A stretch of DNA of 37,513 bases from a virus. Within the stretch, counting starts at the first letter, position 1; every line of letters begins with the position of its first letter. The position numbers and the translations under genes are program-made. The notes beneath the pieces are model-generated. The model was given only the letters and a program-made list of their open reading frames with translations, was not told the origin of the DNA and made no database searches. Where the stretch lies: positions 1 through 37,513 of the IMG/VR virus record IMGVR_UViG_3300042295_000307; one strand, 5' to 3'. Positions 11,867 through 36,426 of this stretch are shown one piece after another.

Positions 11867-12018
11867 AGTGCTACTCCATGAGTGTCGATTGTCGGAACCT
11901 GGCGCGCCGGTACAGGCACGCGCCGTGTGATATACCGGCCATTGGCCGGCGGATAATCTAGCCACTGAATGACGGCGCCAAAGTCATCCAGCCGGCCATA
12001 CTGCAGGCGATAGCGCAT
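11860..12018 (-). CDS. Hypothetical 52-residue protein
   Basis: A short gene between the Gp88-like gene and the small beta-barrel gene. Its ATG at 12018 shares a base with the TAA of the upstream gene (TAATG), and its stop overlaps the next start by seven bases, so it is translationally coupled on both sides. The product begins MRYRLQYGRLDDFGAVIQWL and is basic and aromatic, without a membrane helix. The exact fit between neighbours and the coupling signals support a real gene. Family not recognised. Confidence 0.55.
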   Translation of the reverse strand: MRYRLQYGRLDDFGAVIQWLDYPPANGRYITRRVPVPARQVPTIDTHGVALW

Positions 12019-12770
12019 TAATAGTCGCGGCCTTTAATTTGAACGAAACCGCCGGTATCCCGTTTTGCTTTCCCTTTGGCATAGAGTGCCACTACCACGC
12101 CGGCCGGCTCAATATGGCGTACGTCAGTGTCATCGCCGTCAACGACCGGCCACCCGCGAAATTCGGTCGGTATATCGGCTTGCTTTTGGAACACTACGGC
12201 CGTCCGCTTGTTAGCTGGATTGATCAGGCCTTTGATTGATATCGGTTTTGGCGTGATAGCAGAGAATGAATAGGTTAAATCGTAATTTCCGGCCGTTTTG
12301 CCGGTTAGGTTCCGGCTTGGGTGTTTCGTATAGTCATAAAACTGTACGTCCGCGAACAGCTGGAATATCGTTTTGCCGTCGATCAGAATATTTTCAAACG
12401 GGATATCACTTGTGCCATTCGGCCGTACCAAAGGGATCAGCCCTAGTTTTTCCGCGCGTCGCGCATGTGACCATGCATCCGCGCACATGGATAGCATAAA
12501 CGCCCGTTGATTTTCTTTAAAAAATGCTGTCTTTTTAGCGCGCGCCAATTGTGTTTTATTAAACGCGCCACGGCCGGCTGATTTCAGGCATGGATCAAAA
12601 CATCCGGCCGATTGTGCGAAAGGACATAATTTTGCATCTGGTACCAGATAGCAGATAGCCGTCAAATACCCTATCTTTTCACCCTTGATTGTCTTTGCGG
12701 ACGATTCGCCTAAAATTGGCCGGTATTCCAGGCCTTCGCGTTTTAACTGTAATTTAAATGGGTTTTGCAT
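12018..12770 (-). CDS. Gp88-like Cys-rich protein, unknown function
   Basis: This 250-residue protein is the largest of the leftward island. It has a Cys cluster in the N-terminal third, with Cys40, Cys49, Cys57, Cys61 (LCPFAQSAGCFDPCLKSAGR) and Cys96. That resembles the metal- or cluster-binding Cys pattern of the phage 'gene product 88' family, whose role is unknown. The central part has an aromatic-rich stretch (FADVQFYDYTKHPSR), and the C-terminus is beta-rich. An AGGGA ribosome-binding site precedes the ATG. The gene stops in a TAATG junction with its neighbour. The Cys motif is seen; the family link is from memory and moderate; a redox or radical-type enzyme is possible but not shown. 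Confidence 0.65.
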   Translation of the reverse strand: MQNPFKLQLKREGLEYRPILGESSAKTIKGEKIGYLTAICYLVPDAKLCPFAQSAGCFDPCLKSAGRGAFNKTQLARAKKTAFFKENQRAFMLSMCADAWSHARRAEKLGLIPLVRPNGTSDIPFENILIDGKTIFQLFADVQFYDYTKHPSRNLTGKTAGNYDLTYSFSAITPKPISIKGLINPANKRTAVVFQKQADIPTEFRGWPVVDGDDTDVRHIEPAGVVVALYAKGKAKRDTGGFVQIKGRDY

Positions 12771-13551: not shown

Positions 13552-13998
13552 ATGTTCAAATCGATACCATTCTCACCACGTAAAGTGGAAGCGACTGAGT
13601 CACGCCTCCAGGCGATCTATGACGCTGCTGCGTTGGGGCTCAAGGGCGACTCGCTCGCCTTGGCGGCGGGCATGTTGCCCACCGAGTTCAGGCAGTTGTG
13701 CGAGCTTGACCCAGCGGCGGACATGGCGGTACTAAAAGGACGCGCTGACTCCGAGATTGAGGCCTCTAGCCACCTAAGGGAAGCAGCACGCGCTGGCGAC
13801 AGCAAGGCGGCACTGGCTATTCTGCAACACACCCACGGCTGGACAGCCCGCCAAGAGATTAGTGTGGACATCACGAACAAAATCAGCATCACGCAGGCGC
13901 TGCAACAGGCGCAAGACCGCGTCTTAGACGGTCTGATAACCGAACAGAAACCGGAGTATCTGGAAAATGCCCCAGCCAAAGAACGCGCTCGCGCCTAA
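13552..13998 (+). CDS. Terminase small subunit (probable)
   Basis: A 148-residue protein starting MFKSIPFSPRKVEATESRLQ. The N-terminal half has a helix-turn-helix-like pattern (AIYDAAALGLKGDSLALAAGMLPTEFRQLCEL), and the middle has the DSKAALAILQHTHGW segment common in phage small terminases. It would recognise the packaging site and present DNA to the large subunit. It is the first late gene, just after the origin region, two genes before the large terminase. There is no strong ribosome-binding site before the ATG. Its 3' end overlaps the next gene by 32 bases. Confidence 0.8.
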   Translation: MFKSIPFSPRKVEATESRLQAIYDAAALGLKGDSLALAAGMLPTEFRQLCELDPAADMAVLKGRADSEIEASSHLREAARAGDSKAALAILQHTHGWTARQEISVDITNKISITQALQQAQDRVLDGLITEQKPEYLENAPAKERARA

Positions 13999-14428
13999 TG
14001 CCGAACCGCCGGTCAATATGCTAGACGCGCCGTCTCGCAGTTTCTTTGACCCGCGCACTTACGCGCAAATGTTCATGGATCCGTTTGACGTATCGACGGT
14101 AGCGTATAAAGAAGCTAACGCGCGGTACGACAAGAAAGGCATGATCGGCGGCAAAAACGACGCGTTCCGGCATCTGGTCGGCACGGCGTTACTGGCTCAA
14201 CGTCGCGGCGAACCGTACGCTAAGTTCATCACTAACCTGCATGAAACTGAAATACTGCCCGGCGGGTACGGCGCAAGAGGGCATTCAAAAGAGCAGGTCG
14301 ACATGGACTTGTACAACAATCAGATCGGGTTGGACATCGCGCGCAAAGCCAAAAACTATGATGATCTGATTCGGTTGGCGTCCGAGTACGTCAATACCAA
14401 CAAAACTAGAACTTTGGTACCCCGATAA
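13967..14428 (+). CDS. DUF6973-like protein between terminase genes
   Basis: A 153-residue protein. The central region, GGKNDAFRHLVGTALLAQ (about residues 61-78), then TNLHE and MDLYNNQIGLDIAR, matches the pattern of DUF6973 (NDAFRH..., HE..., MDLxNNxxG). The conserved Asp, Arg-His, His-Glu and Asn-Asn residues look like an active or metal site. The domain occurs in bacterial proteins, some suspected effectors, but its biochemistry is not known to me. It overlaps the small terminase by 32 bases and shares one base with the large terminase start (TAATG), so it is co-translated with the packaging motor. A role in packaging or as a cargo protein is possible but unproven. Confidence 0.65.
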   Translation: MPQPKNALAPNAEPPVNMLDAPSRSFFDPRTYAQMFMDPFDVSTVAYKEANARYDKKGMIGGKNDAFRHLVGTALLAQRRGEPYAKFITNLHETEILPGGYGARGHSKEQVDMDLYNNQIGLDIARKAKNYDDLIRLASEYVNTNKTRTLVPR

Positions 14429-16381: not shown

Positions 16382-16810
16382 ATGGCTAACACCAAACCCA
16401 TCGGCGTAGCGTACGAAGATCAGAACATTATTGGCGCTGACCGCGTTGAAGCGACTACTATTGCTGCTACAGGCACGATTGGCTATGCAACGGGGTCTTA
16501 TGCTACCGTAACCCAGCAAAACAACAAGACTACAGCGGTAACAATTAACACTCCATCAGGTGAGATTATTACAGCTAATGCTCAAATGGCGCCAAATGCC
16601 AATGCGGTGTTTGTAGTTAATTGCAGCGCGGTTAGCACCAAAGACGTAGTAATTATTAGTGTTGCATCAGGCGGCACTTTGGGCGCGTACAACGTATTTA
16701 TTGCTGCTGTTTCTAACGGATCGTTTACCGTAGAAATTAAAAACGTAACCAACAACGCGTACAGCGAAGCGATTAAATTAAACTACGCTATTCTCCACAC
16801 CGCAACGTGA
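16382..16810 (+). CDS. Virion decoration-type protein A
   Basis: A 142-residue Ala/Thr/Val-rich protein beginning MANTKPIGVAYEDQNIIGAD, followed by beta-strand-rich repeats (ATGTIGYATGSYATVTQQ, VVIISVASGGTLGAYNVFI). It looks like an all-beta phage surface or fibre-like protein. The first 12 residues resemble those of the protein at 22791-23075 (MPNTKAVGVAYSD), so the two seem to share an N-terminal docking element. It lies between terminase and portal. No enzymatic motif is seen; a capsid decoration or minor head role is inferred from composition and location. Confidence 0.7.
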   Translation: MANTKPIGVAYEDQNIIGADRVEATTIAATGTIGYATGSYATVTQQNNKTTAVTINTPSGEIITANAQMAPNANAVFVVNCSAVSTKDVVIISVASGGTLGAYNVFIAAVSNGSFTVEIKNVTNNAYSEAIKLNYAILHTAT

Positions 16811-22790: not shown

Positions 22791-23075
22791 ATGCCTAATA
22801 CCAAAGCTGTTGGTGTTGCGTATTCAGATCCAGAGTTTGATAGCGTATCGGTTACCGGCGCCATCACTGCACCTACCATTACTTCAACAGCTACTACTAG
22901 TGCTGTTGTTGCAAATGCTACCGCAGGCTTGTATTTTCTGACTACTGCAATTACTGCTAACACTACAACCACTTCAGCGCCTAAAGGCTCAATCGGTACA
23001 ACCAGCAACGCAACCGGCGCTGGCAAACTGTTTGTGTCTGATGGCTCTAAGTGGCAATTTGCTGTTGTTGCTTAA
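22791..23075 (+). CDS. Decoration-type virion protein C
   Basis: A 94-residue protein with N-terminus MPNTKAVGVAYSDPEFDSVS, close to the start of the protein at 16382-16810. The rest is Thr/Ala-rich (ITAPTITSTATTSAVVANAT) and ends GKLFVSDGSKWQFAVVA, a motif familiar from the C-terminal ends of phage fibre or decoration proteins. The shared N-terminus suggests a common docking peptide for two virion proteins. AAAGGA lies upstream of the ATG, and a hairpin follows the stop. Confidence 0.7.
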   Translation: MPNTKAVGVAYSDPEFDSVSVTGAITAPTITSTATTSAVVANATAGLYFLTTAITANTTTTSAPKGSIGTTSNATGAGKLFVSDGSKWQFAVVA

Positions 23076-24685: not shown

Positions 24686-26320
24686 ATGAAAACGCCCATT
24701 CTTGGCCAAACCTACGTGGCTCGCAGCGTCAACGCTGCGGATAGCCGCATGGTGAATTTGTACCCTGAAGTTACTCCCGCGCCAGAAGGCATGGAGCCTG
24801 CGTACCTGAACCGGGCGCCTGGGCTAAGTTACTTGGCAACCGTAGGTACAGGGCCAATTCGCGGGTTGTGGACGTTTAAAGGGTCTGGCTACGTTGTATC
24901 CGGTAATAGTTTATACAAACTAACCAATAGCTATACAACGACGCTTTTAGGGGGCGTTTCTGGTACTGGGCCGGTATCTATGGCAGATAATGGAGACCAA
25001 CTTTTTGTTGCTGCTAATGGCCCCAGTTACATTTATAACGCCACTACTAACGTATTTGCGCAAATTACCGACCCTGACTTCCCTGGTGCGGTGACTGTAG
25101 GGTTTTTGGACGGCTATTTTGTTTTTAACGAGCCTAATAGCCAAAAAGTTTGGGTAACCAGCCTGCTTGACGGCCTGTCCGTTGACCCACTTGATTTTGC
25201 CAGCGCCGAAGGTTCGCCCGACGGATTAATATCGCTTATAGTTGACCACCGCGAAGCGTGGTTGTTTGGCACCAATTCTGTAGAAGTATGGTACGACGCA
25301 GGCACTGCCGATTTCCCACTACAACGTATCCAAGGTGCTTTTAACGAAATTGGCTGCGCGGCACCTTATTCGGTAGCCAAACTAGACAACAGCGTGTTTT
25401 GGCTAGGCGCGGACGCGCGGGGGCGCGGCGTTGTTTATCGAGCTAACGGCTATACCGGTCAACGCATATCTACCCACGCTATTGAATGGCAGATTCAAGA
25501 ATACGGCAATTTATCTGACGCGATTGGCTACACTTATCAGCAAGACGGCCACAGCTTCTATGTGCTGATCTTCCCTACCGCTAACACGACTTGGGTCTAC
25601 GACGCCGCTACGCAGGCTTGGCACGAACGCGCAGGGTGGTCTAATGGGTCGTTTACTCGGCACCGTAGCAACTGCCAGATGGCCTTTAATAACGAAGTGA
25701 TTGTCGGCGACTTTGAGAACGGCAATATTTACGCGTTTGATCTGGACGTGTATGCGGATAACGGCCAGATCCAAAAATGGTTGCGGTCTTGGCGCGCGCT
25801 GCCTACAGGGCAAAACAATCTTAAACGTACCGCCCACCACACGTTGCAACTTGAGTGCGAATCGGGCGTTGGTTTAAATGCTTACCCTGCTTACGACAGC
25901 GAAAATATCGACACTGAAAACGGTTTAAATATTATAGCTGAATACGTGCAAACTTATTTAGCTACTGAATCACAAATTATACTAACTACTGAAGCAGGCG
26001 ATCAATTTGAACCTTTGGGGCAATACGATTTACCTGATATTGACATTAATGGGTATGGCTTAATTACTACTAGTTACCCGGCTGCGCCAGGCTATGATCC
26101 TCAAGTTATGCTGCGTTGGTCAGATGATGGCGGCCATACATGGTCAAACGAACATTGGTCTAGCATGGGCAAGATTGGCGAATACTATCGCCGGGTGTTC
26201 TGGCGTCGGTTGGGTATGACGTTAAAATTGCGCGACCGTGTGTACGAACTTTCCGGCACTGACCCGGTCAAGATCGCCATTATGGGCGCTGAGTTACAAC
26301 TTAGCGGCACTAATGCCTAG
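24686..26320 (+). CDS. DNA-stabilising tail hub, P22 gp10-like
   Basis: A 544-residue protein with the P22 gp10-type opening PILGQTYVARSVNAADSRMV, NLYPEV and LNRAPGLSYLATVGTGPIRG. It continues with beta-propeller-like repeats (VSMADNGDQLFVAANG, DGYFVFNEPNSQKVWVTSLL, HREAWLFGTNSVEVWYDAGT) and a C-terminal RWSDDGGHTWSNEHW segment. In P22, gp10 forms the tail hub below gp4 and keeps DNA inside the head. The order gp4-like then gp10-like supports this. It starts one base after the previous stop and overlaps the next gene by eight bases. Confidence 0.9.
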   Translation: MKTPILGQTYVARSVNAADSRMVNLYPEVTPAPEGMEPAYLNRAPGLSYLATVGTGPIRGLWTFKGSGYVVSGNSLYKLTNSYTTTLLGGVSGTGPVSMADNGDQLFVAANGPSYIYNATTNVFAQITDPDFPGAVTVGFLDGYFVFNEPNSQKVWVTSLLDGLSVDPLDFASAEGSPDGLISLIVDHREAWLFGTNSVEVWYDAGTADFPLQRIQGAFNEIGCAAPYSVAKLDNSVFWLGADARGRGVVYRANGYTGQRISTHAIEWQIQEYGNLSDAIGYTYQQDGHSFYVLIFPTANTTWVYDAATQAWHERAGWSNGSFTRHRSNCQMAFNNEVIVGDFENGNIYAFDLDVYADNGQIQKWLRSWRALPTGQNNLKRTAHHTLQLECESGVGLNAYPAYDSENIDTENGLNIIAEYVQTYLATESQIILTTEAGDQFEPLGQYDLPDIDINGYGLITTSYPAAPGYDPQVMLRWSDDGGHTWSNEHWSSMGKIGEYYRRVFWRRLGMTLKLRDRVYELSGTDPVKIAIMGAELQLSGTNA

Positions 26321-27842: not shown

Positions 27843-30410
27843 ATGACGGCATACCTTTCCCCAGCGCCAAAGCTGCAGTTTTTTTACGCAGATGGAACGC
27901 CTTTAGTTGGAGGGCTTTTATATTCTTACGCGGCGGGGACTACCACGCCTTTAGCAACGTACACTACGGCAGACGGCTCATCAGCTAACACAAACCCAAT
28001 TGTTTTAGATTCTCGCGGGGAAGCTAATGTTTGGTTAGGCAACGCTGACGCGTACAAACTCACACTAAAAACGCCTACGGGCGATACCATTTGGACTGTT
28101 GATAACATTTCGTCAGTTGAGCCGTTAATTGACGCTTTTAAAGTTCAACTCGCAGCTCCCAGCGGCGCGTCTTTAATTGGATTTATTGCAAATGGCGCGT
28201 CAAATCCAAGCGATGCCAGAACAGTTCAAACTAAATTAAGAGAAATTGTTAGCGTCAAAGATTTTGGCGCGACTGGCGACGGCGTAACCAATGACCGAGC
28301 AGATATTCAAGCAGCCATAGACCAAACTGCAGGTAATGCCCAGTTATATTTTCCTGCTGGAACATATCTAATAGATGAGGCATTACAGTGGAAATCTGGT
28401 TCTTATTTAGTTGGGTCGGGAATTGATTTAACTATTATTAAACTATCAAACAGTGCAGACATAAATAGTAATGTATTAGAGCCAGAAGATAAAAACGGCG
28501 GCACAGAAGGATGGGGCATTACACAAATGACCCTAGATGGTAATTACCAAAGATTTGGTAGTGGAAGTTTAGGCGATGATCGTCCAGGTGGAACTTGTTT
28601 GGCTACTATGAGCGCCAAGCAAGGGGTTATTACTCAAGTAAAAACAAAAAACGCTATTTTGCATGGTGTTGATGTTTGTAATGGCGGCGAAGTAGTTGCA
28701 GGACAACGATATTACGTTGCGCCTGCTAATCAAGCGCCAAATTATTACCCGACAAATGAATCTGAAAATATTTGGTTAGATGAAATTTACAGCGAAAACG
28801 CTGGCGACGACGCATTTACAGGGCATTACAGCAAAAATATTTTTATCGGTCGAGTATATTGCACAAGCACGGGGGGAAGGCATCCTGACCCCGAAGCGTC
28901 AAACTGCTTTGAGGTTGACGATGGTTGCCGACTTTGGAGAATTAACCAAATAACCAGCACCGGCGGAAATCGCGGTTTGGCCATAAAAGTTCACACCCCT
29001 GAACCGTCGCCAATCGACATTATGATCGGCACCCTTTTTGTCAGTGATTGCCGTCAAGGGCTATATATAGACGGACACGCCACGTCATTTGCTCAACGCA
29101 TTACTATTAATAGCGTAATAGTTACAGATCCAGTTCAGGTAAATCAATCTAGCGGTTCTGCTATTGATATACGCGCCATCGTAATTCAAAACGCAAAAAA
29201 CGTTACTATAAACGCAGTAATTGCGGAAGCAACTGGCAGTGAAAGTTTTGCTTTAGATTCGGGCATTTTAGTGTCTAGCAGCTCAACAGACGTTTCAATT
29301 GTTTCGTCGAACATAAAAAATTGGCCTTACAACAATACCGCGACAACAACTATTGGCGGCGTTGTTGTTTCATCAACTTGTAGCAGGGTTTCTTTTAACG
29401 AAATAAATCTTGTCGATTGCGGTTTTAGAGGTGTTGTTGATACCGGCTCGTCAAAAACATCGTATGGAAGTGTTTTTGCCGAGTTAACATCAGCAGTCAC
29501 CGGAAGTGTTGCAGTTAGATTTGTTCAAAGCCCAAAAACAAATCAGATAAATATTGGCCCAATCACAGAAGTTGGGTATGCGACGGCGACAAGTTATGAT
29601 GCCACTGATTCAACAACGATCCCAATAGCACATACCGTTTCTGGATGGTGGGTTGATGGTTTTATAACCGCAGGGCAACGAAATACACCCATAACCACAT
29701 ACCATCAATTTAATAACGACCCAGCTACAACAGCAAATACAGAGCCGACTGCATTCTTCACGGCGAATCAAACCGAAGCGTTAATGCAAGTTTTTGCTAG
29801 AGGAACCGGCGGTTCATTCGGGGCAAATGCCGCAGCAGCGGTTGTTAAAGTTGGGACGTCAGCCACCACGGGGCGGTCAATTAATGCGGGCGGCACCGTT
29901 AACGCAAGCGGCGCCGACTACGCGGAATACATGGTTAAACGTGATGATTGCGGAATTATCTTAAAAGGCCAAATTTGCGGTGTTGACGCAAATGGAATGC
30001 TAACTGATATGTTTGAGCTGGCGCATTCTTTTGTCATTAAATCAACAAGCCCCGCGTATGTCGGCGGCGATATTTGGGCGCAGCATCTTCAAAATCGCCC
30101 TGAAAAACCTTTAGGCAATGATGTGGCCGAAGAAGTTTTAAAAACATACGAAAAAAATCTTGCTGAGTTTGAGGCTGAACTAGAACTGGCAAGGCAAAAA
30201 GTTGATCGAATCGCGTTTTGTGGCCGAGTGCCGTGCCGTATAGAGGGTAGTTATAGCGTTGGGGATTATGTAATAGCGCAACCAACGACTTCGGGGCATA
30301 TCAAAGCAATTGCGGCGTCAAAAGTTGACTTTGAAAATTATGCTTTAGTTGTAGGTAAAATTTGGGGTCTTACGGACGACTCTCCGACAGTTGCGGTCAA
30401 AATCGTGTAA
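27843..30410 (+). CDS. Tailspike with pectate-lyase fold and self-cleaving C-terminus
   Basis: An 855-residue receptor-binding protein. Residues 1-95 (LSPAPKLQFFYADGTPLVGG, LYSYAAGTTTPLATY, VLDSRGEANVWL, YKLTLKTPTGDTIWTVDNI) are the common phage spike head-binding pattern. The segment near residue 138, VKDFGATGDGVTNDRADIQA, marks a pectate-lyase-like beta-helix that runs to about 560 and probably degrades a host polysaccharide. From about 680 on, NASGADYAEYM and RVPCRIEGSYSVGDYVIAQP match the Peptidase G2-type C-terminal chaperone, which helps trimerisation and then cuts itself off. The gene is markedly AT-rich in codon choice. The polysaccharide target cannot be read from sequence. Confidence 0.88.
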   Translation: MTAYLSPAPKLQFFYADGTPLVGGLLYSYAAGTTTPLATYTTADGSSANTNPIVLDSRGEANVWLGNADAYKLTLKTPTGDTIWTVDNISSVEPLIDAFKVQLAAPSGASLIGFIANGASNPSDARTVQTKLREIVSVKDFGATGDGVTNDRADIQAAIDQTAGNAQLYFPAGTYLIDEALQWKSGSYLVGSGIDLTIIKLSNSADINSNVLEPEDKNGGTEGWGITQMTLDGNYQRFGSGSLGDDRPGGTCLATMSAKQGVITQVKTKNAILHGVDVCNGGEVVAGQRYYVAPANQAPNYYPTNESENIWLDEIYSENAGDDAFTGHYSKNIFIGRVYCTSTGGRHPDPEASNCFEVDDGCRLWRINQITSTGGNRGLAIKVHTPEPSPIDIMIGTLFVSDCRQGLYIDGHATSFAQRITINSVIVTDPVQVNQSSGSAIDIRAIVIQNAKNVTINAVIAEATGSESFALDSGILVSSSSTDVSIVSSNIKNWPYNNTATTTIGGVVVSSTCSRVSFNEINLVDCGFRGVVDTGSSKTSYGSVFAELTSAVTGSVAVRFVQSPKTNQINIGPITEVGYATATSYDATDSTTIPIAHTVSGWWVDGFITAGQRNTPITTYHQFNNDPATTANTEPTAFFTANQTEALMQVFARGTGGSFGANAAAAVVKVGTSATTGRSINAGGTVNASGADYAEYMVKRDDCGIILKGQICGVDANGMLTDMFELAHSFVIKSTSPAYVGGDIWAQHLQNRPEKPLGNDVAEEVLKTYEKNLAEFEAELELARQKVDRIAFCGRVPCRIEGSYSVGDYVIAQPTTSGHIKAIAASKVDFENYALVVGKIWGLTDDSPTVAVKIV

Positions 30411-30485: not shown

Positions 30486-30821
30486 ATGACAGTTACTGTT
30501 AAAGTTCTTATCCCCGCCAAGACAGCGGAAAATACCCAAACCACCCAGTACACTGCGACGGGTGTGACGGCCATTATCGACAAGTTTACAGCCACTAATT
30601 ACAGCGCAACCGCTGCTACCATTAGTGTTAACTTGGTAACTGGTGCTGATACGGCGGGTAACCAGAACTTGATTACCAAAACGAAAACATTGCAGCCGTC
30701 GGAAGTCTACACGTTTCCAGAAATTGTAGGTCAGGTCTTGGCACCGAGCGGTTTTATCTCTACTATCGCGGGAACTGCTAGTGCGATCAATATTCGGGCA
30801 TCTGGCCGCGAGGTAACGTAA
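30486..30821 (+). CDS. Small beta-rich virion protein
   Basis: A 111-residue protein with an AGGTG-type ribosome-binding site, starting MTVTVKVLIPAKTAENTQTT. It is Thr/Ala/Val-rich with strand pattern (TAIIDKFTATNYSATAATIS, VNLVTGADTAGNQNLITKTK) and ends NIRASGREVT. The start after a 75-base AT-rich gap makes it the first gene after the tailspike. The composition resembles virion decoration or tail-associated proteins. No enzymatic motif is visible. It leads into the cupin-SET gene three bases later, so the two are likely co-translated. Confidence 0.65.
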   Translation: MTVTVKVLIPAKTAENTQTTQYTATGVTAIIDKFTATNYSATAATISVNLVTGADTAGNQNLITKTKTLQPSEVYTFPEIVGQVLAPSGFISTIAGTASAINIRASGREVT

Positions 30822-30824
30822 AGT

Positions 30825-31694
30825 ATGAACGCAGTAGAGCTTTTTGACGCAGATAGCACGGCGGTAGTTACGCCAGAGCTGATGCGGCAAAAGGTTGTTG
30901 CACTGCAAGATGAACTGTTGCAGATGCCGCAGGCTGACATTGTAACAACTCACACGTTTTTGCCGGGTGTGTACGAACGAAAGATTACCGTGCCGCCGTG
31001 GACAGTGTTGACAGGCGCAGCGCACAAGACGGACTACCGCGTGCGGTTGGAAAAGGGCACGATTGCGGTAAACCGTGATACGGAAGTAGTTGTGTTGACG
31101 GCGCCATGTAAGTTTGACGCCAAGGCAGGTGAACAGCGCGCAGGCCGCGTGTTTGAAGATGAAGTTGTTTGGGTGGACGTGTACGACAACCCCGATGACT
31201 GCCAAGACATACCGACGTTAGAAGACAGGCTGTACGTTGTGCCGGAGTGTGGGTTAGGCGATACTCGACGTCAGTTAGCGATTGAATCGGCGCAAACGGA
31301 TTATCAGTTGTTTTTAGAGCAGTTGGGTATGGATCAGCCCACAATGGACGCAATAGTAACTATTGAAAGCGATCTAATTGATATGCCCGAAGGGCACGAT
31401 GTAGAATTAAAAACGTCGCCAGTGCATGGTACGGGCATGTTTGCAACGCGGTACTTTTTTGCCGGCGAAGTTATTTGCCCCGGTCGATTGGATGGTAAAC
31501 GTACTCCGGCAGGCCGGTTTATAAACCATTCGCCCGACCCTAACGTTATGCCGCACAAGTTTGGCGACGATCTATACGTAATTGCTTTAAAAGATGTGGG
31601 GGTTGGCGGGGAACTTTTAATAGATTACCGAGATGCCGTACACGCAAATTTTGGCTTTTACTTACCTAAGGAAACATCATGTCAGGATTTATAA
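30825..31694 (+). CDS. Cupin-like plus SET-domain protein
   Basis: A 289-residue fusion. Residues about 40-125 have a cupin-like jelly-roll pattern (FLPGVYERKITVPPWTVLTG, AAHKTDYRVRLEKGTIAVN, then APCKFDAKAGEQRAGRVF). Residues about 190-275 show SET signatures in order: VELKTSPVHGTGMFATR (HGTGMFA, 201-207), FFAGEVI, RFINHSPDPNVMP (NHSPDPN, 234-240), ALKDVGVGGELLIDY (GGELLIDY, 261-268). SET proteins transfer methyl groups from S-adenosylmethionine to lysine. NHSxxPN and the final Asp-Tyr are the cofactor and catalytic motifs. It sits between tailspike and ejection genes and overlaps the next gene by 16 bases. It could modify a virion or host protein; the substrate is unknown. Confidence 0.82.
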   Translation: MNAVELFDADSTAVVTPELMRQKVVALQDELLQMPQADIVTTHTFLPGVYERKITVPPWTVLTGAAHKTDYRVRLEKGTIAVNRDTEVVVLTAPCKFDAKAGEQRAGRVFEDEVVWVDVYDNPDDCQDIPTLEDRLYVVPECGLGDTRRQLAIESAQTDYQLFLEQLGMDQPTMDAIVTIESDLIDMPEGHDVELKTSPVHGTGMFATRYFFAGEVICPGRLDGKRTPAGRFINHSPDPNVMPHKFGDDLYVIALKDVGVGGELLIDYRDAVHANFGFYLPKETSCQDL

Positions 31695-32368
31695 CCGGTA
31701 GCGTAATTAGTGGCGGGGCATCTTACGCTGCCGCAAAAGCGCAACAACGTGCTACCGACCGCGCGACCGATGAGCAACGGCGTCAATTTAATCGTCAGAT
31801 TGAACTGCAAGAGCCGTTTCGTAAAGTAGGCGTCAATGCACTGCCTGAACTGGTAGCTGCGTCTAAATACACGCCGTTTGGTATGGATCAATTTCAAGCA
31901 GACCCTGGCTACGCGTTCCGATTGCAAGAGGGCATGAAGGCGCTTGATCGCAGTGCTGCGGCCAGAGGCGGCCTACTGTCTGGCGCTACGCTACGCGGCG
32001 CGCAACGCTACGGTCAAGACTTGGGTTCGCAAGAGTACACCAACGCGTTTAACCGCTATCAGATGGAACGCCAAGCGCGGCTAAACCCGCTGCAATCTTT
32101 GGCGGGCATGAGCCAGACCGCTGCCAACACAATGTCTAATCAAGCAGGTCAGTTTGGCGAAAGCATGGCGCAGAACGCCATGACGCAAGGTAACATTCGC
32201 GCGTCTGGTTACATGAACACCGCGAATGCGTTGACGGGCGGGTTAAATCAATACTTAAACCAACAGCAAAATCAACGGATGATGGATCGGTTCTTCCCGC
32301 AGCAGCCGTCAGGAGCTGCGCCACTAGGTATGCCGGGTAATCCGTTTCCTTATGACGTTACTTCTTAA
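31679..32368 (+). CDS. Internal virion/ejection protein (gp7-like position)
   Basis: A 229-residue protein starting MSGFITGSVISGGASYAAAK, with a Gly/Ala-rich membrane-active-looking N-terminus. A charged helix (QQRATDRATDEQRRQFNRQI) follows, and then the familiar DPGYAFRLQEGMKALDRSAAARGGLLSGATLRGAQRYGQDLGSQEY pattern of phage DNA-ejection proteins. Such proteins travel with the DNA and help form a conduit across the cell envelope. It overlaps the SET gene and precedes two larger ejection-type proteins. The C-terminus is Gln/Asn-rich with a Pro-rich end. Confidence 0.82.
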   Translation: MSGFITGSVISGGASYAAAKAQQRATDRATDEQRRQFNRQIELQEPFRKVGVNALPELVAASKYTPFGMDQFQADPGYAFRLQEGMKALDRSAAARGGLLSGATLRGAQRYGQDLGSQEYTNAFNRYQMERQARLNPLQSLAGMSQTAANTMSNQAGQFGESMAQNAMTQGNIRASGYMNTANALTGGLNQYLNQQQNQRMMDRFFPQQPSGAAPLGMPGNPFPYDVTS

Positions 32369-32377
32369 AGGTTAGCT

Positions 32378-34270
32378 ATGGCCGGTATTGATTACACCAT
32401 CCCAGGGCAAATTAAAGGCATTCAACTTGAATCGCCCATGAACGCTATGACGCAAGCGTTGCAGCTGCGCGGGTTGCAAGAAGCTTCGCAGATGAATGCG
32501 TTGAAGGCGCAAGAGTATCAGCAAGACGTAGTGGAAAAGAATGCGCTTGCTCAGATATACGCAAACCCAAAATTAAAGTACGGGTCAGAAGAGTTTTTTG
32601 CAGAAGTATCTAAACGCGCGCCTCGCTATTTTGAGAAGATTGCTACTGGCGAAGCACAACGACAAACAGCGCTTTCGACTCAACAACAACGCGAAGCTGC
32701 AACTGAAGAGGCTCGCCGAAAAACCCGGTTAGCTAACCGCGAGTTTGGGTACCGCAAGATCGCTGGCGCGCCTGACTATGGTCAGGCTGTCAGTATGATT
32801 GAACGAAGTGTTCGGGCTGGCGAGATTGATCGTGAAGAGGCAGACGACATGCTCTCGCGCTTAAACCCTGATGTTGACATGGGTCAATTTAGAACCCAAA
32901 CGCTGACGAACATGTTAGCGCCAGAAAAAGTATTTGAAGAACAACGCGCTGCAGAAAAATCTACCTTTGAGATTGATAAACTTAAAGCTGACAAGGCCGA
33001 ACGCAAACTTAAGTTTTACCAATCTGTTGTGCCCAACGTTGACACAATAGATGGTGTGTCTCAGCTTGTGGCAACAATGTATCAAGACCGAGACCTTGGG
33101 CCAGTTTTGTCGCAGATACGACCTTACGAAGACGCTGTTACAGCCAATCAAGATTCGTTTAATAAAGACCCTGAGAATTGGAAGTTAACGTCAAGCGGCG
33201 TTAATGCTAAAGACGTTATTGAAATGGCGCGCACTAAAAACAAACCTATATCCGTGTCGCCCGGCAGTCAGTTACTTGACCCAAATTCTCTTGAGGTCAT
33301 ATATACCGCACCAACTACTTCCAGAGAAAGCGAAAGCGATCTGGCGCGCTTGCAGCGCGAACGTGCGGCTATTGCAGCAGAAAATCCAGACGACCCTCGC
33401 TTGGCACAATACGATGCGCGTATTTCTAAGCTAGTCAGCCCGGCAGAACACTTGTCGGATTTGGCTCGCAAGCAAAGCGAACTTGAGGAACTTGAAGCTC
33501 AGTTGGTTAAAGACCCAAACAACGCCAAGCTTAAACAGCGCATTAAAGAGTACAAAGACGACATCCGCAAAGATACGCAGTGGAAGCCGTCAACGGTTGT
33601 TGTGCAGGCGCCGACCTTGTCCGTTCCCGCAATAGACATGGCAGCAGATCGTTTCTTGACAGACGGCACGTTGCCATCGGGCATTAGTAAATTTAACCGC
33701 GACGCTATCATGAATCGCGCGGCAGTAATTGCTAAAGAAAAGGGTATTAGCCCTGACCGCGTTTCGCAGTTAGAAACAGTTGCCAACAAACAAGCTTTGG
33801 GTCAACTGTCCAAGACTGAAACAATGGTCGGTTCGTTTGAAAAACTTTTTGTTAAAAATGCCGACCTAGCTTTATTGTTAGGTAAAAAAGTTGACAATAC
33901 AGGCGTTCCTTTATTGCAAAAATATATTAACGCGGGGTACCGCGCAAGCGGTAGCAGCCCAGATTTAAAAGCGCTTGACACCGCTATTGAAGCGGTTGCA
34001 TCTGAATACGCCAAAATTGTATCGGGCAGTATGGGAAATACAGCGGTTGCGCAAGGCGAAAAGAAAAGAATTCGTGAGTTAATAAATTCTCAGTTAACAC
34101 CGCAAGATTTAATTGCTGTGATTAACACAATGAAGATAGAAACCAAAAACCGCATGGAAGGGTTTAAGGAACAACGCGCTGAGCTATTAGGATCTATGCG
34201 CAGCTCTACAACCGCGCCCGCCGCAAAAAGCGATGTACGTTCTAAAGCTGATGCAATTTTAGGGAAATAA
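32378..34270 (+). CDS. Internal virion/ejection protein (second)
   Basis: A 630-residue, largely helical protein starting MAGIDYTIPGQIKGIQLESP, with PMNAMTQALQLRGLQEASQM typical of the N-termini of podovirus ejection proteins. The bulk is Gln/Ala/Glu-rich coiled sequence, with no transmembrane segment and no transglycosylase motif. In P22-like phages three such proteins (gp7, gp20, gp16) are ejected before the genome. The size and order here match gp20. An AGG ribosome-binding site precedes the ATG. No catalytic residues could be identified. Confidence 0.8.
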   Translation: MAGIDYTIPGQIKGIQLESPMNAMTQALQLRGLQEASQMNALKAQEYQQDVVEKNALAQIYANPKLKYGSEEFFAEVSKRAPRYFEKIATGEAQRQTALSTQQQREAATEEARRKTRLANREFGYRKIAGAPDYGQAVSMIERSVRAGEIDREEADDMLSRLNPDVDMGQFRTQTLTNMLAPEKVFEEQRAAEKSTFEIDKLKADKAERKLKFYQSVVPNVDTIDGVSQLVATMYQDRDLGPVLSQIRPYEDAVTANQDSFNKDPENWKLTSSGVNAKDVIEMARTKNKPISVSPGSQLLDPNSLEVIYTAPTTSRESESDLARLQRERAAIAAENPDDPRLAQYDARISKLVSPAEHLSDLARKQSELEELEAQLVKDPNNAKLKQRIKEYKDDIRKDTQWKPSTVVVQAPTLSVPAIDMAADRFLTDGTLPSGISKFNRDAIMNRAAVIAKEKGISPDRVSQLETVANKQALGQLSKTETMVGSFEKLFVKNADLALLLGKKVDNTGVPLLQKYINAGYRASGSSPDLKALDTAIEAVASEYAKIVSGSMGNTAVAQGEKKRIRELINSQLTPQDLIAVINTMKIETKNRMEGFKEQRAELLGSMRSSTTAPAAKSDVRSKADAILGK

Positions 34271-34272
34271 CT

Positions 34273-36426
34273 ATGGCAACAGCAGACGAATACGCAGCGT
34301 GGATTGTCAAAAACGAAGCCAAAAAAGGCACGCCAGAATTTGACACGGTTGCAGCTGCGTACAAAGAAGCGCAGGCGCAAGAGCAATCGTTGCCGCCTAT
34401 TACCGTTACGCCTGACACTATGACGGTCAGCGAAATACCTAAGCCTCGTAATTACAGTATGGGTGAAATACCAGGCGCCATGATACGCAACGCACCAAAA
34501 AGCGCTGTTGAATTTGGCGCGAATGTTGTCGCGCCATTTATTAGTCCTGTGCAGACGTTTATGGGTTTAGGAGATGTGCTGGGCGGCGTTATGGAGCCGG
34601 TTACGCCTGACTTTCTGTACAGCGACGAAGCGTTAAAAAACGCTAAGAATGCGCGTTCGGGCGTAGCTGATTTTTTTGTTAACCGTTACGGCGGCTATGA
34701 CAATTTAAAGCGCACAATGGCGGAAGACCCGGTCGGGTTTTTTGGCGATCTATCTACCGTGCTTACGGGCGGCGCGGCGAGTGCGGGCAAGTTAGGCGCT
34801 ACGTCAACCGCAAACGTATTATCTAAAACGGCTAGGTACACCAATCCTTTGACGCCTTTTGCTGCGGCGGGTAAGTACGCTTACGGCAAGGTAATACCCG
34901 AGTCGGAAAAAGTTGCCGCCGCTATGGTGCGTAAAGCATCTGGCGACGACTTAGAAAAAATTCGTGCGGTAATTAATAAAGACGAGTCAGGCTTGACTGT
35001 ACAAGAGTTGTTAGCTGACCTTGACCGTAACCAGATTCAATCGTTGGGTGAACTAGCGCGCACTAAAGACACTAAGAATTTTTATTCTAAGCTGGACAAA
35101 TATCGTGAGCAGACCCGTCAAGACACATTAAACAATCTGGCAGGCGGCGCAACTAATACAGAAATCCTAAACAATCTGGCCAAGTCTAAAGACGCGTTGA
35201 CAGACGTTACCACGCCAATGCGCGAAACCAACTTGGCTGCTGCCAACACCGGCAAGTTAAAGCAAACTTTAGAAACGCAAGCAACTACATTAGGTGAAGC
35301 TGCTGCCGGTAAAGTGGACGACGTGCGTCGATTTACGGCTGCGCGTCAACGACTAAACGCGGCTAAAACCCAAGCCGACCTATCACCAAACGTTAGCGCA
35401 GATAGGCTGAAGTTTACCGGTGAAATGGAAGATGCAGCTGAACGCGTGGCCACCAAAGCGGCAGATGATTCACTTAAATTTGGTGAAGGCGCCCGGTTTG
35501 CCCAAGCCCGCGCTGACAGTTTGGCAGCCCACGGCTTGAAGCCGCTAGATACTGACGGCGTCCTGCGTGACATCAGAGCCAAACTGAACGACCCCAAGAT
35601 CGGCGTGTCGGACGTTAACCGTAAGGTATTGACTGCAGTCGGCAAAAAGATTCAAGAGTGGACAGCCCGCAACGGCGGCGTGATTGACGTTGAAGCGCTT
35701 TACAGTATTCGTAAAGATACAGTCAATGAAGTCATTGATAGCTTGGGTAAAGACCCCAAAGCGTCTGCTAAATACGCAGCTCGTTTGTTAGGTGAAGTAC
35801 GTCCGCTGATTGACGACGCCATCATCAAAGCTGGCGGCACGGGCTGGAAAGACTACCTTGAGACTTTCTCTAGCGGCATGGATGTCATTAACCAGCGCAA
35901 AATGGCTCAAACAGCCCGTGACTTGTATAAGAAAAGCCCAGACGAGTTTATCGCGCTAGTGCGTGGCGAACGGCCTGATTTGGTCGAGCAGATTTTTGGC
36001 AATGGCCGCATTGATATTAAAGCTGAGATGGGCAGCAAGTTTAAAGCGCTTGACACCGTTGCAGGCGAACTAGAACGCGGGCAAAAAATAAAAGCCGCTT
36101 CCGAAAAAGGCGCAGCCAACCTAAAAGATATTGTTAAAGAATCCACGCCAAGCCTACGCATACCGTTTTTTGGTTTAAAAGCTACGGTTGGTAACGCTGT
36201 GTTGAAGGAGTTGTCCGGTAAAATTAACACCAAGACAATGGCGATTCTGGAAAAAGGTTTTGAGTCGGGCAAGAATTTTGAGGATATGCTAAACCAAGTG
36301 CCTTTTGGCGACCGGGGCAGGGTTTACAATGCGTTGCAGAAAGTTAACCGCGTAAACTTGACTGGCGCGGCAACGGTATCAAACGCTTTGGCACCGGAAA
36401 ACAGAAACAGAATGAGGGCACCATAA
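34273..36426 (+). CDS. Internal virion/ejection protein (third, largest)
   Basis: A 717-residue protein starting MATADEYAAWIVKNEAKKGT and PEFDTVAAAYKEAQAQ, a short N-terminal helical element common to large phage virion proteins. It continues with amphipathic stretches (APFISPVQTFMGLGDVLGGV, DFFVNRYGGYDNLKRTMAED, LSTVLTGGAASAGKLGATS) and long Ala/Lys/Glu helices to the C-terminus. It begins two bases after the previous stop and is the last of the three-gene ejection set, matching gp16 in position. No lytic transglycosylase or peptidase motif is visible. The hydrophobic amphipathic N-terminal third could insert in the host membrane. Confidence 0.8.
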   Translation: MATADEYAAWIVKNEAKKGTPEFDTVAAAYKEAQAQEQSLPPITVTPDTMTVSEIPKPRNYSMGEIPGAMIRNAPKSAVEFGANVVAPFISPVQTFMGLGDVLGGVMEPVTPDFLYSDEALKNAKNARSGVADFFVNRYGGYDNLKRTMAEDPVGFFGDLSTVLTGGAASAGKLGATSTANVLSKTARYTNPLTPFAAAGKYAYGKVIPESEKVAAAMVRKASGDDLEKIRAVINKDESGLTVQELLADLDRNQIQSLGELARTKDTKNFYSKLDKYREQTRQDTLNNLAGGATNTEILNNLAKSKDALTDVTTPMRETNLAAANTGKLKQTLETQATTLGEAAAGKVDDVRRFTAARQRLNAAKTQADLSPNVSADRLKFTGEMEDAAERVATKAADDSLKFGEGARFAQARADSLAAHGLKPLDTDGVLRDIRAKLNDPKIGVSDVNRKVLTAVGKKIQEWTARNGGVIDVEALYSIRKDTVNEVIDSLGKDPKASAKYAARLLGEVRPLIDDAIIKAGGTGWKDYLETFSSGMDVINQRKMAQTARDLYKKSPDEFIALVRGERPDLVEQIFGNGRIDIKAEMGSKFKALDTVAGELERGQKIKAASEKGAANLKDIVKESTPSLRIPFFGLKATVGNAVLKELSGKINTKTMAILEKGFESGKNFEDMLNQVPFGDRGRVYNALQKVNRVNLTGAATVSNALAPENRNRMRAP

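Follow-up and report, generated by a model that had tools for sequence, protein, structure and literature searches.

A SET domain carried as an optional in-frame cassette on a cupin-fold protein of the phage ejection module

We analyzed a 37,513-nucleotide stretch of viral DNA (hereafter the window) and confirmed that its open reading frame at 30825-31694 (plus strand, 289 aa, ATG start, TAA stop) is a real fusion of a cupin-fold domain and a SET domain. Comparison with close relatives showed that the SET module is an accessory cassette: otherwise near-identical phages have acquired or lost it with the reading frame intact. The optional in-frame cassette, its shortened SET-I region, and its linkage to the carrier domain are undescribed as far as the literature we searched shows. 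Given the persistent fusion and the repeated gain and loss, we favor a methyltransferase that is associated with the virion or its assembly and whose role faces the host or depends on conditions.

To our knowledge, there is hardly any precedent for protein lysine methylation as a weapon of phages or as a modification of their virions. This family provides a natural experiment, with near-identical phages that have and lack the enzyme, an invariant active site, and cultured relatives (P26218 and PH1). It also illustrates how phages can acquire an accessory function not through a separate gene but through a domain joined in frame to a conserved carrier, and it makes a testable object of the unexplained cupin protein of ejection modules.

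Results

A cupin-fold and SET fusion gene between tail and ejection genes

The fusion protein belongs to the phrog_34170 family, which it matched over residues 19-273 in a full-length profile search (2.7e-36), and full-length homologues were found both in phages and in IMG/VR. Its SET signatures lie in the order given by a sequence-only reading of this DNA, namely HGTGMFA at residues 201-207, NHSPDPN at 234-240, and GGELLIDY at 261-268. The domain identities, the fusion, and the ejection-module position proposed in that reading all hold, but the fusion is not unique to this phage: it is present in Rhodoferax phage P26218 and Pseudoalteromonas phage PH1. Nor is the family new, since databases already contain the fusion as phrog_34170, as hypothetical proteins, and under one structure-based label (a relative named 'pbcV-1 histone H3-lys 27 methyltransferase structure'). 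The same reading knew of no established function for such a phage protein, and this seems to hold: the literature we searched contained no paper on phage SET proteins and no described function, and the SET domain goes unmentioned in the P26218 and PBR31 papers.

The gene does lie, as that reading had it, between a tailspike-like gene and ejection genes. Upstream are a P22 gp10-like head-closure gene (24686-26320) and the tailspike-like gene (27843-30410, plus strand), which carries PF12708, a pectate-lyase-type domain, and matches pre-neck appendage/tail PHROGs. The immediate downstream gene encodes a P22 gp7-type DNA-ejection protein (31679-32368, plus strand; phrog_598, 4.1e-44), phrog_598 being the family of P22 gp7 itself, while the match of this gene to PF25688 (P22_gp7, 1.9e-4) is below the Pfam cut-off. 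The fusion gene overlaps it by 16 nt (31679-31694, plus strand), an arrangement also kept in SET-less relatives that, judged from the sequence, would fit translational coupling. Two large genes (32378-34270 and 34273-36426) follow in place of the other ejection proteins.

In most relatives compared, a gp7-type ejection gene stands directly 3' of the cupin or cupin-SET gene. The cupin gene directly precedes the gp7-type gene in isolates with the fusion (P26218, PH1) and in cupin-only isolates (BA3, VPMS1), and in Variovorax phage VAC_51 the cupin has tail genes on one side and T7-like internal virion proteins on the other. This fixed position across the isolates and VAC_51 indicates that the cupin belongs to the regular gene set of podophage ejection modules.

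Several other features of the window were observed. The C-terminal part of the tailspike-like protein (27843-30410) is common to another PHROG (phrog_34132), which suggests a mosaic spike. A small 111-aa protein encoded directly upstream of the fusion gene (30486-30821, plus strand) is 84-97% conserved where present, went undetected in roughly half the close relatives, and has a 132-aa relative in locus L173 (3.6e-38). Between the replication and packaging genes, 12018-12770 (minus strand) matches Pfam GP88 (gene product 88; 1.2e-32), and a DUF6973 protein (PF22322, 1.4e-16) is encoded at 13967-14428 (plus strand) immediately ahead of the gene for the large terminase, where an extra gene is unusual. 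Two small proteins at 16382-16810 and 22791-23075 (both plus strand) flank the portal-capsid block and have near-alike starts (MANTKPIGVAYEDQ and MPNTKAVGVAYSDP, respectively); they may be related.

A compact SET domain with invariant motifs

The SET identity of the C-terminal half, first proposed from its motifs, was borne out by profile and structure comparisons. The domain spans residues 187-276 (31383-31652, plus strand), and residues 229-268 scored 37.5 bits (E 3.3e-9) with Pfam PF00856, whose cut-off is 22.4. A 13-member family profile matched the PDB entries for the MLL1 SET domain (4e-11) and PBCV-1 vSET (2.8e-6), and a profile of the SET module only gave a stronger match to MLL1 (6e-14). 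Modeled alone with AlphaFold, the module reached a pLDDT of 90.9 and a pTM of 0.84, and Foldseek returned MLL1 (E 1e-6), SETD8, and vSET (TM-score 0.63 on vSET length). The C-terminal pseudoknot of the SET domain is only implied by the predicted structure.

Key residues of the motifs expected of a SET enzyme are invariant across 73 distinct SET-positive sequences, which represent the wider lineage of the window. The AdoMet-site GxG lies in S198-F206 (SPVHGTGMF, 31416-31442), where S198, G202, G204, and F206 are invariant; R231-N240 (RFINHSPDPN, 31515-31544) contributes R231, N234, H235, S236, and N240; and E263-R269 (ELLIDYR, 31611-31631), aligned to ELTYDYK of MLL1, contributes E263, R269, and Y268, the presumed catalytic tyrosine (all three motifs on the plus strand). 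R226, T227, and G230 are likewise invariant, and most of the invariant residues are also kept in far relatives and in stand-alone copies of the module. In front of the SET domain is a helical segment (residues 129-178; 31209-31358, plus strand), which from about residue 145 travels with the SET module. Its D159, followed by D183 and P188, is invariant, stand-alone SET copies included, and the segment is probably part of the SET module.

Between the first two motifs, spacing and the MLL1 alignment show a 24-residue stretch ending in KRTPAG (31443-31514, plus strand) that replaces the usual longer strand and SET-I region. The spacing from GxGxF to RxxN is exactly 24 residues in 34/34 family members, and at SET-I the profile alignment sets 46 residues of MLL1 against 11 phage-profile positions (about 35 more in MLL1). 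The phage domain thus has no SET-I insert of the usual length, a length that varies within PF00856 and hence is not decisive for family membership. In known SET enzymes, SET-I helps to bind the substrate and shapes the substrate groove. With this region shortened, substrate binding probably differs, and lysine methylation by the phage domain could be altered or lost.

The cupin-fold carrier

The cupin-like strand pattern noted earlier in the N-terminal half corresponds to a barrel in the AlphaFold model (residues 40-122; 30942-31190, plus strand), whose nearest PDB structures are cupins (Foldseek E ~2e-6) and which forms the carrier domain common to SET-less relatives (phrog_12032 and phrog_24280). 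A Pfam search of this half gave no match to cupins or to any other family. The full-protein model, built from 31 relatives, has a pLDDT of 87 and a pTM of 0.56; because this pTM is low, the model does not give the relative placement of the two lobes. Cupin metal-ligand motifs are not conserved (H67 in 26/39 sequences, E76 in 22/39, and no conserved second-motif His), and an active metal cupin enzyme is therefore unlikely.

Gain and loss of the SET module among near-identical phages

IMG/VR phages with a cupin 79-97% identical to that of the window either have the SET module or encode a protein that ends at 166-183 aa. The junctions are in frame: SET-positive and SET-less sequences agree to about residue 145 and again from the start of the ejection gene, with the overlap kept. 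For example, L016 (with SET) and L049 (without), from different metagenomes, are 94% identical in the spike and 94/100/94.5% identical in the ejection proteins. Since such near-identical SET-less relatives exist, the SET domain would not be needed to build the particle. On a cupin DNA tree of 95 rows, SET presence needs about 13 changes, gains and losses counted together, of which at least 9 are forced by well-supported branches. Cupin and SET distances are correlated (Mantel r 0.5/0.3), and the two halves therefore partly share a history. Where SET is present it is under purifying selection, with a median dN/dS of 0.09-0.10 for SET and ~0.06 for the cupin.

Three other accounts of this pattern were rejected. 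Relocation of SET elsewhere in the SET-less phages found no support in 12 contigs, mostly fragments and one of 37,030 bases, none of which held a SET match. A tie to the small upstream gene (30486-30821) failed, since its presence is independent of SET and relatives show no consistent link. A tie to one set of ejection proteins failed as well, as near-identical ejection proteins occur with and without SET (L016/L049).

Linkage to the carrier and stand-alone copies

We scanned viral contigs with a profile led by stand-alone SET copies and took the best 80 of at least 485 matches, which yielded 79 analyzable SET ORFs. Within this best-scoring set, SET was fused to the cupin in 79/79 ORFs, and the next gene was a recognized gp7-type gene in 58/79, another gene in 18/79, and the end of the locus in 3/79. 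A search with the L176 protein alone found no stand-alone viral SET copies.

Outside these viral contigs, the two domains can part. Paraburkholderia ferrariae encodes cupin and SET as separate adjacent genes with a 4-nt overlap, and apparent mobile elements of Betaproteobacteria carry stand-alone SET modules next to primase/helicase genes (L175:5875-6441 and L176:6001-6558). These two copies beside replication genes indicate that the SET module can be kept without the cupin. A second strong SET-module copy (L182), in a 316-aa open frame, lies on the same contig of the Paraburkholderia genome behind L170; the gene neighborhood of L170 was left out, as gene calling there was confused by minus-strand ORFs. 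A common bacterial SET protein as the direct source was rejected, since 0/299 other genomes of the order of the Betaproteobacterial SET carriers matched the SET module at 1e-15, and plasmid matches were weaker. The result at 1e-15 suggests that the module is a component of phages and mobile elements.

Discussion

What does the fusion protein do?

The best overall explanation, which we hold with roughly even confidence, is that the cupin holds a compact SET lysine methyltransferase at the ejection machinery, where it methylates proteins met there. The N-terminal part would be a conserved component of the ejection module that serves in the virion or in its assembly, as its fixed place next to the ejection genes suggests. 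The C-terminal part, whose motifs and predicted fold are those of SET enzymes, would be active as a lysine methyltransferase, held by the cupin at the ejection machinery either during assembly or in the virion. Its targets might be lysines of virion or ejection proteins, or of host proteins met after ejection, and the selected benefit would depend on host or conditions. Virion methylation and delivery of a host-modifying enzyme, the two roles put forward in the sequence-only reading, are thus both plausible. The persistence of the cupin fusion argues that the location of the enzyme matters, and its repeated gain and loss argues that SET lies outside the basic machine; as this turnover resembles that of an arms-race gene, we lean slightly toward a host-facing role. 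Against this explanation, the fusion to the carrier could reflect history instead of function, the substrate-binding aid SET-I is much shortened, two stand-alone SET copies sit beside replication genes of apparent mobile elements, and, among the best 80 of at least 485 matches, 18/79 next genes were not recognized as gp7-type.

A host-directed effector is a tentative alternative. Here the cupin-anchored SET protein would be packaged and ejected, or would act in the late-infected cell, and would methylate host proteins (e.g., blunting a defense, or altering a nucleoid or translation protein). Host-interaction traits typically come and go in this manner among phages that are otherwise near-identical, and both the purifying selection on SET where present and the stand-alone copies in apparent Betaproteobacterial mobile elements are consistent with such a role, whereas a search against PADLOC models gave no match, and the packaging and ejection of the protein are assumptions of this account.

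That the enzyme instead modifies only the virion seems to us somewhat doubtful. On this account SET would act late in infection on lysines of proteins made by the phage itself (ejection proteins, spike, or coat), and never on the host, so that ejection is tuned or the particle shielded. The late structural-module site beside the ejection genes and the linkage to the cupin carrier would suit this, but sister phages whose ejection and spike proteins are 94-100% identical lack SET and show no matching change; with proteins this similar in SET-less phages, the spike and ejection proteins evidently work without it.

The most specific version of the host-facing idea, in which a swappable, virion-associated SET effector is anchored by the cupin to the ejection apparatus, delivered into the host, and methylates a host protein there, we regard as rather unlikely in that full form. 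If true, it would be a phage-borne lysine methyltransferase effector, a domain cassette that short-tailed phages gain and lose in frame.

It is improbable that the SET fold has been retained solely for a binding or structural role and transfers no methyl group, making it a pseudo-enzyme or, in a tail protein, a structural C-terminal lobe. The shortened SET-I with its constant 24-residue spacing could be read in this way, and some SET proteins, MLL5 among them, are reported as inactive (PMC5094779). However, even very distant members keep the GxG, RxxN, and E...Y motifs unchanged, and a structural lobe would not need them.

Least probable is that the cupin is a tail adhesin or a sugar-active 'short tail fiber' with SET as a passenger on a receptor-binding module: databases do name the carrier's phage family "short tail fiber" or 'tail fiber adhesin', and an RmlC-like cupin of a Ralstonia phage is annotated as a short tail fiber without experimental validation (PMC8703784), but our literature search found no experiment behind the 'short tail fiber' name, the cupin is 79-97% conserved while neighboring tail genes differ strongly, unlike a receptor-binding protein, and its metal/active-site positions are not conserved.

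Comparison with known systems

The phage SET domain has the AdoMet-site and catalytic motifs and the predicted fold in common with PBCV-1 vSET, MLL1/KMT2A, and SETD8. It differs from them in its shortened SET-I, in the helical segment in front, and in its fusion to a carrier domain, and, in contrast to these enzymes, no histone substrate is expected for it. With regard to gene order, the cupin gene occupies the same slot as P22 gene 14, immediately ahead of the gp7-type ejection gene; this order suggested that the carrier and P22 gp14 (phrog_651) are homologous, which was rejected (hhalign probability 0.3%).

The proteins of phrog_12032 and phrog_24280 (Thalassomonas phage BA3 gp7, Vibrio phage VPMS1) have the same cupin-fold carrier in the same genomic place, without the SET domain. 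Among the closest known counterparts are also the phrog_34170 proteins (P26218 gp30, PH1 gp49, and relatives), which share the layout of cupin, helical segment, and SET, directly upstream of a gp7-type gene. These isolates' proteins are ~25-33% identical to the window protein and were deposited as hypothetical or 'tail fiber'-like; unlike them, the lineage of the window forms a separate, densely sampled branch in which the SET module is optional.
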